Source of the DNA: Streptomyces indicus
GTDB taxonomy: Bacteria > Actinomycetota > Actinomycetes > Streptomycetales > Streptomycetaceae
Assembly: GCF_900100315.1 (NCBI RefSeq)
Contig: NZ_FNFF01000004.1
Location: 372,001 to 436,000 of the forward strand
Direction: 5' to 3'
Length of the DNA: 64,000 nt
The notes beneath the pieces are model-generated. The model made no database searches. It was not told the origin of the DNA and was given only the letters and a program-made list of their open reading frames with translations. A program made the translations under genes and the position numbers. Shown here piece by piece: positions 49,592 to 55,076 of the stretch (positions within the stretch are counted from its first letter, which is position 1; the number at the start of each line of letters is the position of its first letter).

Positions 49592-49880
49592 GCCTGTGGA
49601 CCGTGCAGGCCGTTGCGTGCAGGGCCGCCCGGTCACCCCGTAGACCCGAGCGTTCCCTCCGCGTATCGCGGCCTGATGGCACGTCATACAGCGGCGTACA
49701 AACAGGAGTTGAGCGAACGGCACTGGTGATTTCGCCGATGCACGCATTCCGGTTCCCTCGCGACAGTGGCGGCTGTCACTGACCCAGGTGGCGTCGTACG
49801 GAGCCGGCACGGCCCGCGGACAGGGCCGGTGAGCCGTCGGTTTCGTGCGGCGCGGCCTTCCACGAGAGGAACCCCCCGTC
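49592..49880. other. Intergenic region before the cutinase gene
   Basis: About 290 bp. AT-richer sequence (CATACAGCGGCGTACAAACAGG) near 49685-49705 may hold the cutinase promoter. AGAGGA at 49865 is the ribosome site. Nothing else is recognised. Confidence 0.45.
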
Positions 49881-50825
49881 GTGCAGCAGTTCACCGACGA
49901 GAGCCGCACCACGCCCCTCGCCTCTGCCCCCGTTCCCGCGCAGCGCAGCCGCCGTTCCCGCGGCCTGCGCGCCGCCCTCGCCGGGTTCCTGGCCGTCGGC
50001 GCCCTGATGACCTCGCAGACCGTCACCGCCCACGGCGCCGACAACCCGTACGAGCGCGGGCCGGCCCCCACCCAGTCCAGCATCGAGGCCTCCCGCGGTC
50101 CCTACGCCGTCTCCCAGACCTCCGTGTCCTCCCTCAGCGCCTCCGGCTTCGGCGGCGGCACCATCTACTACCCGACCACCACGAGCGACGGCACGTTCGG
50201 CGCGGTGGTCATATCGCCCGGCTTCACCGCGTACGAGTCCTCCATCGCCTGGCTCGGACCCCGCCTCGCCTCCCAGGGCTTCGTGGTGTTCACCATCGAC
50301 ACCCTCACCACCCTCGACCAGCCCGACAGCCGCGGCCGCCAACTCCTCGCCGCACTCGACCACTTGACCCAGCGCAGCACCGTGCGCAGCCGTGTGGACG
50401 CGAGCCGGCTCGGGGTCATGGGCCACTCGATGGGCGGCGGCGGCACGCTTGAAGCCGCCAAGAGCAGGCCCTCGCTCCAGGCCGCGATCCCCCTGACCGG
50501 CTGGAACACCGACAAGACCTGGCCCGAGATCCAGACGCCCACGCTCGTGATCGGCGCCGACGGGGACACCATCGCTCCGGTGTCCTCGCACTCCGAGCCC
50601 TTCTATCAGAGCCTGCCGTCCTCGCTGGACAAGGCCTACCTGGAACTCAACGGCGCGAGCCACTTCACGCCCAACACCTCGAACACCACCATCGCGAAGT
50701 ACAGCATTTCCTGGCTGAAGCGCTTCATCGACAACGACACCCGCTACGAGCAGTTCCTCTGCCCGCTGCCGCGCCCGAGCCTGACGATCGAGGAGTACCG
50801 GGGCAACTGCCCGCACTCGGGCTGA
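49881..50825 (+). CDS. Secreted cutinase / PET-hydrolase-like polyesterase
   Basis: A 314-aa protein. A signal peptide with basic start ([10 protein letters not shown]) ends around residue 52; the mature part begins [12 protein letters not shown], as in Thermobifida cutinases. Catalytic Ser183 (GHSMGG), Asp229 ([10 protein letters not shown]) and His261 (GASHFTPN), the oxyanion loop GFTAYES (Phe115), Trp208 (TGWNTDK) and the C-terminal Cys294-Cys310 pair are present. Of the TfCut2 calcium ligands Asp174/Asp204/Glu253, only the first is kept (Asp227); the others are Asn257 and Asn285. It should hydrolyse cutin-type polyesters; activity on PET is inference. Confidence 0.9.
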
Positions 50826-50868: not shown

Positions 50869-50882
50869 TAGCGTGAGGCGCG
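50869..50882 (+). promoter_or_regulatory. -10 box TAGCGT for leaderless LAL-regulator transcript
   Basis: TAGCGT (50869-50874) ends 7 nt before GTG 50882; no ribosome site. Confidence 0.55.
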
Positions 50883-53245
50883 TGACCCCTGCGGACCGGT
50901 GGGAACCCGTATCCCCGCTGTACGGCAGAGGCCGCGAACTGGCCCGGTGCGCACGCGAGTTGGAGCGCCTCCGGGTCGGTCGCGGCCGGTCGCTCGTGCT
51001 CACGTCGGACCCCGGACTCGGGCGCACGGCGCTGCTGCGGCACCTCGCCGCCACCTTCCGCGGCGGGACGGCCCGCCTCGCCCCGGCCGTCCCGCCCCAC
51101 GGCCCCCGCGACGAACTCCTCGGCCTCCTCTACGGCGGTACGGCGGCCGAGCCGCTGCGCACCGCCCTGCTCCGTGCCGCCCGCGAACAGCCCCTCCTGG
51201 TCTGCGTGGACGACCTGCACCTGTGGCCCGCGGACCCGCGCCGCGCCCTGTGCGGCCTGGCGCGCTCGCTCACCGCCGCACCGGCACCGCTCGCCCTGTT
51301 CCTGTCCGTGGCCGCCCACCGCGCCGCCGCCGTCCCGGACGAACTGCCCGTGCTGCGGCTGGACCCGCTGGACGACGCGGCAGCCCACGCGTACCTGACC
51401 CGCCTCACCGCAGGGCGGCGCCTCCCCTCCGCGACGAGCGCCCGACTCGTCCACGAAGCGGCCGGAAGCCCGCTGGTTCTCCAGGAGTTGGTGGAGGGGC
51501 TCCGGGGCCGTGACGGCGAAGACGGTGCTGACCGTGAGGGCGATGGCGGCTCCCCGGATACGGGTGATACGGGGGATGCGACTGACGCGGTTGACGTGGC
51601 TGACATAGGGCGAGCCGGCTCCCCACCCGCCACCCGCCCCGCTCGCGCCCTGCGCCTCGTCGTCGCCGCCGAGCGGGCGCGGCTCGCGGGCCGGCCCGAG
51701 CAGGCGGCCCGGCTGCTCGGCCCCGTACGGCGGCTGTCGCTGCCCGACGAAGTGACCGGGCAGGCCCAACTCGTCCACGGGCTCCTGGAGTCGGGCGAGG
51801 GCCCGGTGGCCGACGCCCGCGCTTCGCTGCTGCTCGCCGCCCGGCTGCTCACCCCGCACGACCCCCGGCAGGCCCTGCGCGCCCGGCTCGCCGCCGCCGA
51901 GGCCTCCTGGGCGATGGGGGATGCGGCCGCGTACCGCGAGGCACTCGTCCCGCTGGCCGGACCCACGGGCGTACCGGGGGGCGAGGGTGCGTTCGCCACG
52001 CAGCTGCGGACGTATCTGCGCGGTATGGACGCCGTGTTGAGCGGCGACCCGCACGCCTTCGCCGCGGGACGCGGCACCCTGCGCAGCGTCGTCGAAGCCG
52101 CCGAGAGCGCGGACGCGGCGGAGGCCGCGACGGACGAGGCCGAGCTCCTCGTGTGCGCAGGCGCCGCCGCGCTCGTCGTCGGCGACCTCACCGCGGCCTG
52201 CCGGCTCGGCAGCCGGGCCCTCGCCGTGGCCCGGGCGCGCGGCCGCTTCACCGTGGTGCCGAAGGCCCTGGAGCAGCTCGCGTACGGGGAGTTGCGGGCC
52301 GGCCGGCACGCGCGGGCCCGCGCACACGCCGAGGAGGGCGTGCGCGCCTCCCGCCGCACAGGCCGCCGCAACGACCTCGCCCACCACCACGCGATCCTCG
52401 CCCTTGTCGCCTCGCTCGACCAGGACGCCCGTACGGTCGCGCAGTACGCCGCGGCCGCCGAGGAGACCGCCGTGCGCCACGGGCTCCTCCAGGCCGAGAC
52501 CCTCGCGCAGTGGGCGCGGGCCCGCGCCGACCTGGCCCGCGGCCGCCCGCAGGAGGCGGCGGCCCGGCTGCATCCGCTGCTCGCGCAGGGCCGCGCCCGG
52601 GGGCACTTCGCGGTACGGATGCTCGCCGTGCCCTGCTTCGTCGAGGCGTCCGTGCTCGCCGGGCGGTCCGACGAAGCCCGGGCCGCGGTGGGGGAGTTCG
52701 CGCTGTGGGCGGGGTTCGGGCACGACCCGCAGGCCCCGGCCCAGCTGCTGCGCTGCCGTGCCCTGCTGGCCGCCGACGAGGATCCGGACCGTGCGGCCGC
52801 CCTCTACCCCGAGGCCCTGGCCCGGCACGATGCGGCGGACGGCGACTTCGAGCGCGCCCGCACCGCCCTCCTGTACGGCAAGTGGCTGCGCCGGGCCCGT
52901 AAACCCGCCAAGGCGCGCGACGCCCTGCGGGACGCGCTGATCGCCTTCGAACGGTGCGGCGCCGGTGCCTGGGCCGCCCAGGCGGCGGCCGAGCTCCGGG
53001 CCACCGGCGAGGCCGCCGCGCCCCAACTCCCGGACACCTTGGACGGGTTGACCCCGCAGCAGGTGCGGATCGCCCGCCTGGTGGCCGAGGGCGCCACGAA
53101 CCGCGAGGTGGCCCGCCACCTGTCCGTCAGCCCGCGCACCGTCGACCACCACCTGCGCAACGTCTTCGCCGCGCTGGGGGTCCGCTCCCGCGTGGAGCTG
53201 GCACGTGCGGTGACGCGGGCGGACGGGGCGCGGACGGACGCCTAG
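50882..53245 (+). CDS. LAL-type LuxR-family regulator
   Basis: A 787-aa regulator: N-terminal AAA-type ATPase domain with altered Walker A (DPGLGRTALL, Arg replaces the usual Lys) and Walker B LLVCVDDLHLW, a long helical TPR-like region (~260-715), and a C-terminal LuxR HTH (LTPQQVRIARLVAEGATNREVARHLSVSPRTVDHH in three pieces). The ATPase-TPR boundary holds an acidic low-complexity insert (residues ~205-240, Asp/Gly/Thr-rich). LAL proteins often control secondary metabolism or carbon use; the target is unknown. Confidence 0.88.
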   Translation: MTPADRWEPVSPLYGRGRELARCARELERLRVGRGRSLVLTSDPGLGRTALLRHLAATFRGGTARLAPAVPPHGPRDELLGLLYGGTAAEPLRTALLRAAREQPLLVCVDDLHLWPADPRRALCGLARSLTAAPAPLALFLSVAAHRAAAVPDELPVLRLDPLDDAAAHAYLTRLTAGRRLPSATSARLVHEAAGSPLVLQELVEGLRGRDGEDGADREGDGGSPDTGDTGDATDAVDVADIGRAGSPPATRPARALRLVVAAERARLAGRPEQAARLLGPVRRLSLPDEVTGQAQLVHGLLESGEGPVADARASLLLAARLLTPHDPRQALRARLAAAEASWAMGDAAAYREALVPLAGPTGVPGGEGAFATQLRTYLRGMDAVLSGDPHAFAAGRGTLRSVVEAAESADAAEAATDEAELLVCAGAAALVVGDLTAACRLGSRALAVARARGRFTVVPKALEQLAYGELRAGRHARARAHAEEGVRASRRTGRRNDLAHHHAILALVASLDQDARTVAQYAAAAEETAVRHGLLQAETLAQWARARADLARGRPQEAAARLHPLLAQGRARGHFAVRMLAVPCFVEASVLAGRSDEARAAVGEFALWAGFGHDPQAPAQLLRCRALLAADEDPDRAAALYPEALARHDAADGDFERARTALLYGKWLRRARKPAKARDALRDALIAFERCGAGAWAAQAAAELRATGEAAAPQLPDTLDGLTPQQVRIARLVAEGATNREVARHLSVSPRTVDHHLRNVFAALGVRSRVELARAVTRADGARTDA

Positions 53246-53370
53246 CAGAGGCCGCCGTGCGCCCGCAGCCGAAGAATCCTCGCCCGGACGCGAATCCTTT
53301 CCGCGCCCGCCCGTCTCTCATCCACGAACCGGCCGTACGGGCCGGACGGAACCAGGAGGAGACGTACAGG

Positions 53371-53457
53371 ATGGTCACTGGCCTCATCGTGATCGGCGCC
53401 CTGCTCGTGGGCGCGTGCAGTCTGCATCTCATGCGGCGTTACAGGAGCCGGAGTTGA
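53371..53457 (+). CDS. 28-aa hydrophobic peptide coupled to a sigma factor gene
   Basis: ATG with AGGAGGAG 8 nt upstream encodes one membrane helix (VTGLIVIGALLVGACSLHLM) and a basic end RRYRSRS. Its TGA overlaps a TTG start of the ECF sigma gene (TTGA, 53454-53457). It could be a translated leader that couples sigma synthesis, or a true membrane microprotein. The strong ribosome site favours translation. Confidence 0.65.
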   Translation: MVTGLIVIGALLVGACSLHLMRRYRSRS

Positions 53458-54026
53458 ACCGACGCTTCACCTGGCCGGACGAGCGGCTGATCAAGGCCGC
53501 CCAGGACGGCGACCACAGCTCGCTGACCACCGTCGTCATGGAATCGCAGCCGCACGTACGGAAGTTCGCCCGCTCCCTGTGCGCCTCGCCGCAGGACGCG
53601 GAGGACGCCGCGCAGGAGGCGCTGATCATCCTCTACCGGAAGATCGGCACGCTGCGGGCCACGGGGGCGCTCGCCTCGTGGATGTTCCGGATCGTGCGCA
53701 ACGAGTGCCTTCGGCAGCTGCGGACGCTCACGGCGCCCGGCGGTACGGCACCCGAACAGGTCGAGCAGGTCGAGCAGGTCGAGTCGTCCGCGGAGCACGC
53801 CGTGCTGCACCGCCTGGAAGCCGAGCGGATCGCGGCCGCGGTGCGCGCGCTGCCCCGCGACCAGCGGCAGGTCCTGATCATGCGGGACATCCAGGGCCTG
53901 CCGGGCCGGACCGTGGCCGCGGCGCTCGGCCTGAGCACGGCGGCCATGAAGTCCCGGCTGCACCGCGCCCGCGCGGCCCTCAGGGACGCATTGGACGCCA
54001 CGGAGAGAGGAGAGGTACAGCCATGA
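53454..54026 (+). CDS. ECF-type RNA polymerase sigma factor
   Basis: About 190 aa. Sigma region 2 spans VMESQPHVRKFARSL to SWMFRIVRNECLRQL, and region 4 spans LPRDQRQVLIMRDIQGLPG to AMKSRLHRARAALR. The linker holds Gln-Val-Glu repeats (EQVEQVEQVE). TTG 53454 is chosen because AGGAGCCGGAG precedes it and it overlaps the peptide stop. An upstream GTG at 53415 would add 13 residues and one TTA leucine codon (53439-53441), implying bldA dependence; it has no ribosome site. It overlaps the next gene by 4 bp. Confidence 0.85.
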   Translation: MNRRFTWPDERLIKAAQDGDHSSLTTVVMESQPHVRKFARSLCASPQDAEDAAQEALIILYRKIGTLRATGALASWMFRIVRNECLRQLRTLTAPGGTAPEQVEQVEQVESSAEHAVLHRLEAERIAAAVRALPRDQRQVLIMRDIQGLPGRTVAAALGLSTAAMKSRLHRARAALRDALDATERGEVQP

Positions 54027-54283
54027 GCACCCCACAGCCCCGTGACTACGCGAGCAGCTCCGTCCCGCGCCACCTCGCACGCGGAGCCGTCGGCTTCGGG
54101 CTGATCGCCGGCGCGCTCGCCCTGGTGCCCTTCGCCGGACCCCTCGCCCTGCTCGGGGCCCTGCCCGCGCTGATCGCCTTCCGCGGCTGCCCCACCTGCT
54201 GGGCGGTCGGCCTCGTGCAGACCGTCTCGCGGGGAAGGCTGCGGCGGCAGTGCACGGACGGGGTCTGCACCCTCACCCGGTGA
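54023..54283 (+). CDS. DUF2892-like membrane protein with CxxC motif
   Basis: An 86-aa protein with two close membrane helices (AVGFGLIAGALALVPFAGPLALLGALPALIAF in two parts) followed by RGCPTCWAVGLVQT and a C-terminal CTDGVCTLTR. The RGCPTCW motif is typical of YgaP-type DUF2892 proteins. The two cysteine pairs could be redox active. The ATGA overlap with the sigma gene suggests a functional partner, perhaps a membrane anti-sigma or thiol sensor; this is inference. Confidence 0.75.
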   Translation: MSTPQPRDYASSSVPRHLARGAVGFGLIAGALALVPFAGPLALLGALPALIAFRGCPTCWAVGLVQTVSRGRLRRQCTDGVCTLTR

Positions 54284-54337: not shown

Positions 54338-54973
54338 TCAGAGGCCGAGCTGCTTGGCCCCCTGGAGCCGCTCGATCGCTTCCTTGTCGCCCTCCACCTC
54401 GACCTTCGCCGCCTCCTGGCGCCCGAAGACGTACATCGTCAGCTCACCCGGCTCACCGGTCACCGTCACGACCGGGGTGCCGCGGTGGGCGACGACCGTC
54501 TGGCCGTCGGGGCGGCGCAGGACCATGCCGACGGGGGCCTTGCGGCCGAGCAGGCGGGCCGACTTCTCCAGGCGGGACCACAGCGCGTTCGAGAACACCG
54601 CGTCCAGGGTGCGCGGCGACCAGTCCTCCTGGGCGCGGCGCACGTCCTCGGCGTGCACGTAGAACTCCACCGCGTTCGCCGCCTCGTCCACCTGCTTGAG
54701 GGAGTACGGCGAGAAACGCGGCGGACCCGTACGGATGAGCTGGATCAGCTCCTCGTACGGCTTCTCCGTGTACTCCGCCATCACCTTCTCCAGGCGGCTC
54801 TCCAGCGCCTTGATCAGGATGCCGCCCGCGGCGTCCGCGCGGCGCTCGCGCACCACGACGTGCGCGGCGAGATCCCGCGTCTTCCAGCCCTCGCACAGAG
54901 TGGGCGCCTCGGGGCCCGCGGCCTCCAACAGATCGGCGAGGAGCAGCCGTTCACGCTTGGCATGGGTCGACAT
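54338..54973 (-). CDS. TIGR03085-family metal-binding protein (DinB/MDMPI-like)
   Basis: A 211-aa protein with the N-terminal mycothiol-dependent maleylpyruvate isomerase-like four-helix fold: [34 protein letters not shown] (first metal His) and [13 protein letters not shown] (second His). Such proteins are thiol- or metal-dependent enzymes of unknown substrate. ATG 54973 is the first of two neighbouring candidates. It stands between the sigma factor set and hisI. Confidence 0.85.
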
Positions 54974-55076
54974 GGTGGCCAGCGTACGTCCGCCCAGGCC
55001 CGACGGCCATGGGACGCCCGCTCCGTGCGGCCCGTCCGGGTCCCGGACAGCGGCCCGGAAGCCGGCCCGGATCACG

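Follow-up and report, generated by a model that had tools for sequence, protein, structure and literature searches.

ECF σ factors are usually understood through their partner anti-σ factors. In the SigR–RsrA system, a redox-controlled, positively autoregulated ECF σ factor is paired with a zinc anti-σ factor, and the cassette described here would share with this system both the thiol theme and positive autoregulation. The cassette, however, has no zinc anti-σ factor of the HxxxCxxC type; what adjoins its σ factor is a membrane protein with two helices or a redoxin.

A missing anti-σ gene is not new in itself, because ECF σ factors without one are known in Streptomyces, namely SigE and SigQ (both ECF39) and AntA (ECF282) (PMC8999054). 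Like these proteins, the σ factor of the present cassette has two domains and no adjoining cognate anti-σ gene. It differs from them in that its promoter motif is found almost exclusively at its own operon and in that neither a two-component system nor a protease gene is conserved next to it. Another described locus is that of Streptomyces venezuelae RS00060, an ECF σ gene that is co-transcribed with RS00065, which encodes a 102-amino-acid, one-helix protein (PMC11256431), and that is upregulated after ethanol shock at 48 h (PMC9769785). As 102 amino acids is a possible length for the third protein of our cassette (p3, see below) in some related species, RS00060 and RS00065 may be orthologous to the σ factor and p3, and may thus represent the same system. 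The σ group itself may already carry a number in the ECF classification. What is unusual about the cassette is the combination of a promoter found nearly only at its own operon, independence from genomic context, the exchange of effectors around one σ–promoter pair, and two protein families that have no model in Pfam, NCBIfam, or PHROGs.

A peptide, an ECF σ factor, and a membrane protein form a compact cassette

The cassette is located in a 64,000-nucleotide stretch of DNA (the window) on contig C27 of an 8.2-Mb, 45-contig, Streptomyces-type genome. It comprises three consecutive open reading frames, which encode a 28-amino-acid, single-helix membrane peptide (MVTGLIVIGALLVGACSLHLMRRYRSRS, positions 53371–53457), a 190-amino-acid ECF σ factor (53454–54026), and p3, an 86-amino-acid helical-hairpin membrane protein with a CPxCW and a CxxxxC motif (54023–54283). 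The peptide gene is preceded by a Shine–Dalgarno sequence, AGGAGG (53354–53359), and, further upstream, by a predicted autoregulatory promoter of the ECF type, GAATCCTTTCCGCGCCCGCCCGTCTCTCAT (53292–53321), which consists of GAATCC, 17 bases, and CTC and was identified by motif conservation. All these elements are on the forward strand. The σ gene starts with a TTG codon that matches the ATG start of its relatives in the alignment.

The window sequence again displays the four-base overlaps described in the initial annotation, TTGA at the peptide/σ junction and ATGA at the σ/p3 junction. The σ/p3 overlap is common in relatives, but four bases are not the rule at the peptide/σ junction: in the clade of the window, most Streptomyces members have a ~40-nt spacer there, and in the other clade the overlap is ~8.

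The σ factor matches Sigma70_r2 (9e-17) and Sigma70_r4_2 (7e-15) of Pfam, both above the cut-off, and the general ECF model TIGR02937, also above the cut-off, with the nearest named subfamilies falling far below their own cut-offs. With regions 2 and 4 only, a length of ~190 amino acids, and no region 3, it is an ECF (group IV) σ factor.

The trio recurs in several families

A species-level genome scan returned 329 relatives of p3, and the best 80 of these were read together with two plasmid loci. The peptide, the σ factor, and p3 occur together in 80 of these 82 further loci (σ directly upstream of p3 in 80, peptide present in 80), a recurrence that exceeds chance. The gene order, the conservation of which outside its own genome the initial annotation had left to be checked, is therefore kept, and the proposed coupled unit with a thiol theme is supported as conserved and probably undescribed. 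The trio is present in Streptomyces, Kitasatospora, Embleya, Nonomuraea, Streptosporangium, Nocardia, Kribbella, and others, and also on large replicons of Streptomyces, Embleya, and Nonomuraea that are recorded as plasmids. Both loci without a σ factor are naturally damaged. L085 has lost most of its σ gene but retains the promoter, the peptide, and p3; in L099, a transposase-like gene is located directly upstream of p3 and the remainder of the cassette is lost.

Across 150 Streptomyces genomes, p3 was found in 26 (plus one spurious match) and the σ factor (E ≤ 1e-45) in 25, so that 24 of the 27 genomes with either match have both. The two genomes with p3 only turned out to contain an adjacent σ reading frame after all, damaged in one of them. 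A decaying cassette, with a frameshifted σ gene and a p3 gene broken by a stop codon, was observed in genome G078 (L027).

No flanking gene family that could serve as a functional clue is shared by more than six of 80 loci, and the cassette is thus self-contained. A phylum-wide p3 profile search of 396 genomes yielded, outside Streptomyces, only chance short matches, as this sample is thin. In several species (L089, L096, L100, L104, L106–L109), the cassette is positioned ~4 kb away from the end of a contig, which possibly reflects a chromosome-end repeat.

Conserved features of the peptide and p3

The reading frame of the peptide is intact in all 87 loci that have both the σ factor and p3, and a ribosome binding site-like motif precedes it in each of them. 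Cys16 is invariant in this set, and the basic RR tail is nearly so. The mean pN of 0.29 compares with a pS of 0.40, and pN is lower than pS in 82% of pairs. Judging from this conservation, the peptide is a real gene. Its basic C-terminus and short N-terminus suggest an N-out, C-in topology, in which, by the positive-inside rule, the helix end that bears Cys16 would face the cytoplasm. The peptide has no match in Pfam, NCBIfam, or PHROGs. We rejected two candidate identities: an LPXTG annotation on a RefSeq-derived plasmid, as the peptide contains no LPXTG motif, and S. venezuelae PepX (PMC11256431), which is 19 amino acids long, has no transmembrane helix, and is encoded between other genes.

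The CPTCW motif (C56/C59) and the second cysteine pair (C77/C82) that had been noticed in p3 are indeed present and invariant in 38 relatives, although cysteine conservation by itself is weak evidence because many residues are invariant at 60–80% identity. The non-membrane parts of p3 are ~17 and 27 residues long. Its AF2 model, with a mean pLDDT of only 67 and hence low confidence, contains two long helices, a short helix, and a β-hairpin that carries C77 and C82. A fold search of the PDB with this model and a PDB profile search gave no significant match, and p3 belongs to no Pfam, NCBIfam, or PHROGs family.

The initial annotation had named p3 a DUF2892 protein (PF11127, now YgaP-like_TM), and this assignment did not withstand HMM and profile–profile tests. 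Neither p3 nor 20 relatives exceeded the 25.3-bit threshold of PF11127; p3 had no match to this family at E ≤ 1, and none of the 21 p3-family sequences had one at E ≤ 5. The hhalign probability of the p3 profile against 16 actinobacterial PF11127 members was 0.2%, and the only PF11127 gene of the same genome is on another contig. The original impression is understandable because the two layouts are similar by eye, each with a two-helix hairpin, CP where the second helix ends, and a GL motif thereafter; p3, however, has an extra tryptophan and the second cysteine pair and is without HMM or profile–profile support for the relationship.

Neither p3 nor the peptide matches any anti-σ family, and the invariant His17 of p3 is far from Cys56/59, unlike the HxxxCxxC arrangement of zinc anti-σ factors (ZAS/RsrA). 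That no classical zinc anti-σ factor adjoins the σ gene, as had been stated, is therefore correct.

One predicted promoter type is found upstream of the operon

The motif GAATCC-N17-CTCYYRT precedes the cassette at 75 of the 82 loci and at all 30 Nocardia loci examined. The spacing of 17 is kept in 74/80 loci, in 22/24 redoxin-type loci (see below), and in 6/6 Nocardia loci with σ and p3. The motif is retained across operon types with the exception of G669, where none was seen.

In 24 Streptomyces genomes searched with at most one mismatch, the motif located the operon in 21 and gave five other matches, compared to three for the reversed pattern. A second pattern, applied to 53 genomes with zero or one mismatch, marked the operon in 38 of the 40 σ-bearing genomes, which had three additional sites with one mismatch and no additional exact site, and gave no match in the 13 genomes without the σ factor. 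The bipartite motif, which would correspond to the −35 and −10 elements of an ECF-type promoter, is conserved upstream of the different operon types and is linked to the presence of the σ factor. From this distribution we infer that the σ factor reads the GAATCC-N17-CTCYYRT promoter of its own operon. As the motif is found almost only there, the recognizable regulon of the σ factor is the operon itself, within the sensitivity of a motif search that would miss weaker or more degenerate promoters. One Nocardia copy with a single mismatch (L222; G640:C86:3194-3223) precedes a gene for a possible secreted protein and could be a second target or a chance occurrence.

p3 is replaced by a redoxin or a hydrolase in other lineages

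The first sign of replacement was a σ factor without p3 in two Nocardia genomes of the phylum sample. Based on gene coordinates and reading, 94 of 150 Nocardia genomes contain the σ factor, which is accompanied by p3 in 68, by a redoxin in 25 (24 read as loci, and G669), and by an α/β hydrolase in one; two types of σ operon were never seen in one Nocardia genome. The peptide was found in none of the 24 redoxin-type loci read. In the hydrolase-type Nocardia genome (G645), the order is peptide, σ factor, hydrolase, which shows that the peptide is not strictly tied to p3. A hydrolase of the same kind follows the promoter and the σ factor in the Streptomyces genome G077, which has neither peptide nor p3, bringing to two the genomes in which p3 is replaced by this enzyme.

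The Nocardia redoxin is a member of the AhpC/TSA family (AhpC-TSA, PF00578; 1e-20, 74 bits, above the cut-off) and resembles Mycobacterium tuberculosis AhpE (Rv2238c) at ~1e-11. It carries a CPxC motif, CPLC, the second cysteine of which aligns with the AhpE cysteine and occupies the catalytic position, and its best NCBIfam match, which is below the cut-off, is a SelL-related redox protein. The redoxin gene is not present in the window. The σ factors of redoxin-type operons form one clade (support 0.99) inside an otherwise p3-type group, with modest support for the rooting.

Copies of p3 are also found on their own. The redoxin-type Nocardia genome G600 has a lone p3 homolog on contig C22 (45% identity over 66 residues) in which CPTCW is kept and the second cysteine pair is lost, and the promoter, one of the three additional sites with one mismatch, is directly upstream of it. 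G594 carries a further p3 copy, which is frameshifted and located 15 kb from the operon, with the promoter in front and no σ gene. That p3 can stand alone after the promoter suits an output gene more than an obligate local inhibitor, and both copies may be decaying, considering the lost cysteine pair of one and the broken frame of the other. Judged by where it occurs, p3 behaves like a swappable output.

Proposed mechanism and its alternatives

On balance, we favor a model in which the locus is a self-contained, positively autoregulated ECF stress cassette that has no recognizable anti-σ factor and delivers a membrane thiol effector. The σ factor would read a single promoter type, located before its own operon, and thereby produce more σ factor and one downstream effector. 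In the window, this effector would be p3, a small membrane hairpin whose four cysteines would form a site on the cytoplasmic side. The peptide, with its invariant cysteine expected at a similar depth, would accompany p3 and may be its partner subunit. The effector of other lineages would be an AhpC/TSA-type redoxin with a CPxC motif or an α/β hydrolase. Restraint would probably be exerted by the σ factor itself, through Cys43 and Cys85, and/or by the effector as it removes the signal. From sequence comparison we infer the thiol-stress role, the topology, the pairing of the peptide with p3, and a σ factor under redox control. Thiol or oxidant stress is indicated because the two common effectors share CPxC, and the hydrolase variant widens the range to electrophile or ester detoxification. 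The swap of p3 for a redoxin or a hydrolase points to a stress-protection device and not to the usual σ/anti-σ pair.

An autoregulated σ factor needs a brake, and p3 has several properties that would suit one: it is a membrane protein with four invariant cysteines, it is encoded directly downstream in the operon, and an anti-σ factor of unknown family has been suggested for the 102-amino-acid S. venezuelae protein described above (PMC11256431). We nonetheless consider it doubtful that p3 is a membrane-bound, cysteine-based anti-σ factor of a new family, with the redoxin as its soluble, redox-sensing counterpart in Nocardia. The σ factor is kept in 25 Nocardia genomes without an adjacent p3, the lone p3 homolog of G600 stands behind the promoter and away from its σ factor, the same slot is taken by a hydrolase in two genomes, no anti-σ family is matched, and the non-membrane parts of p3 are very short compared to class I anti-σ domains. 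The suggestion of the initial annotation that the peptide or p3 is a thiol-sensitive anti-σ factor is weakened by the same Nocardia genomes (the peptide being absent from the 24 read) and by the lone p3, and we do not favor it. As the σ factor survives with three different neighbors, and without the peptide in the redoxin-type loci read, neither protein is a universal anti-σ factor. An unseen inhibitor is likely because an inhibitor-free autoregulated σ factor should run away, and the candidates for this role include p3, the peptide, and the redoxin.

A purely transcriptional cascade, in which the operon is first switched on by a regulator or promoter from outside, the σ factor serves only to amplify, and the signal is unrelated to thiols, appears unlikely. 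The anti-σ-free ECF σ factors SigE and SigQ are controlled in this manner (PMC8999054), and the α/β hydrolase variant shows no evident link to thiol chemistry, but no regulator gene is conserved beside the cassette, which is found on plasmids and in varied contexts, and both common effectors carry CPxC.

The σ factor might also be its own redox sensor. Cys43 and Cys85 are present in all 112 members of the σ group, compared to 0/7 and 1/7 paralogues, respectively, and are candidates for σ restraint. Cys85 is near the end of region 2, and Cys43 is five residues before DAED (residues 48–51), a motif in contact with RNA polymerase at which ECF43 is controlled by phosphorylation (PMC8999054). A thiol switch at Cys43 is an attractive idea, although the conservation of these cysteines is suggestive only, since at 60–80% identity many residues are invariant. 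In its fullest form, which we regard as speculative and unlikely, a reversible thiol change at Cys43, together with Cys85, would gate the binding of RNA polymerase, the cassette would be a one-protein sensor and transcription factor that switches on only itself and a plug-in thiol effector, and the peptide–p3 membrane complex would be a new membrane thiol enzyme or metal site.

Finally, it is very unlikely that the peptide is an inhibitor whose basic tail tethers the σ factor to the membrane, or a leader that couples and limits σ translation: it precedes the σ gene in 87/87 σ/p3 loci and in a hydrolase-type operon, its gene overlaps the σ start or ends shortly before it, and it has an invariant cysteine, but it was not found in the 24 redoxin-type loci or in hydrolase-type G077, which have the same type of σ factor and promoter, and a leader would not need the residue-level conservation that is seen in its helix, cysteine, and RR.

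For the favored model of a stress cassette with exchangeable effectors, the association of one σ–promoter pair with a membrane cysteine protein, a redoxin, or a hydrolase means that the effector is easily read off, and the exchange provides a natural comparison for finding the signal. The σ factor and its promoter are also a candidate orthogonal pair.

Genes flanking the cassette in the window

The gene facing the cassette (54338–54975, reverse strand) encodes a mycothiol-dependent maleylpyruvate isomerase-like protein (MDMPI_N); the link to mycothiol is tempting, but this neighbor is not conserved elsewhere. Directly upstream of the cassette (50873–53245, forward strand) is a gene for a large LuxR-type regulator of the LAL type, which has an AAA ATPase domain at its N-terminus and is not conserved beside other copies of the cassette. 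Further upstream (49845–50825, forward strand), the window encodes a polyester hydrolase that matches the Pfam PETase (PET hydrolase-like) family at 2.7e-125, a close fit to cutinases and PET-degrading enzymes.
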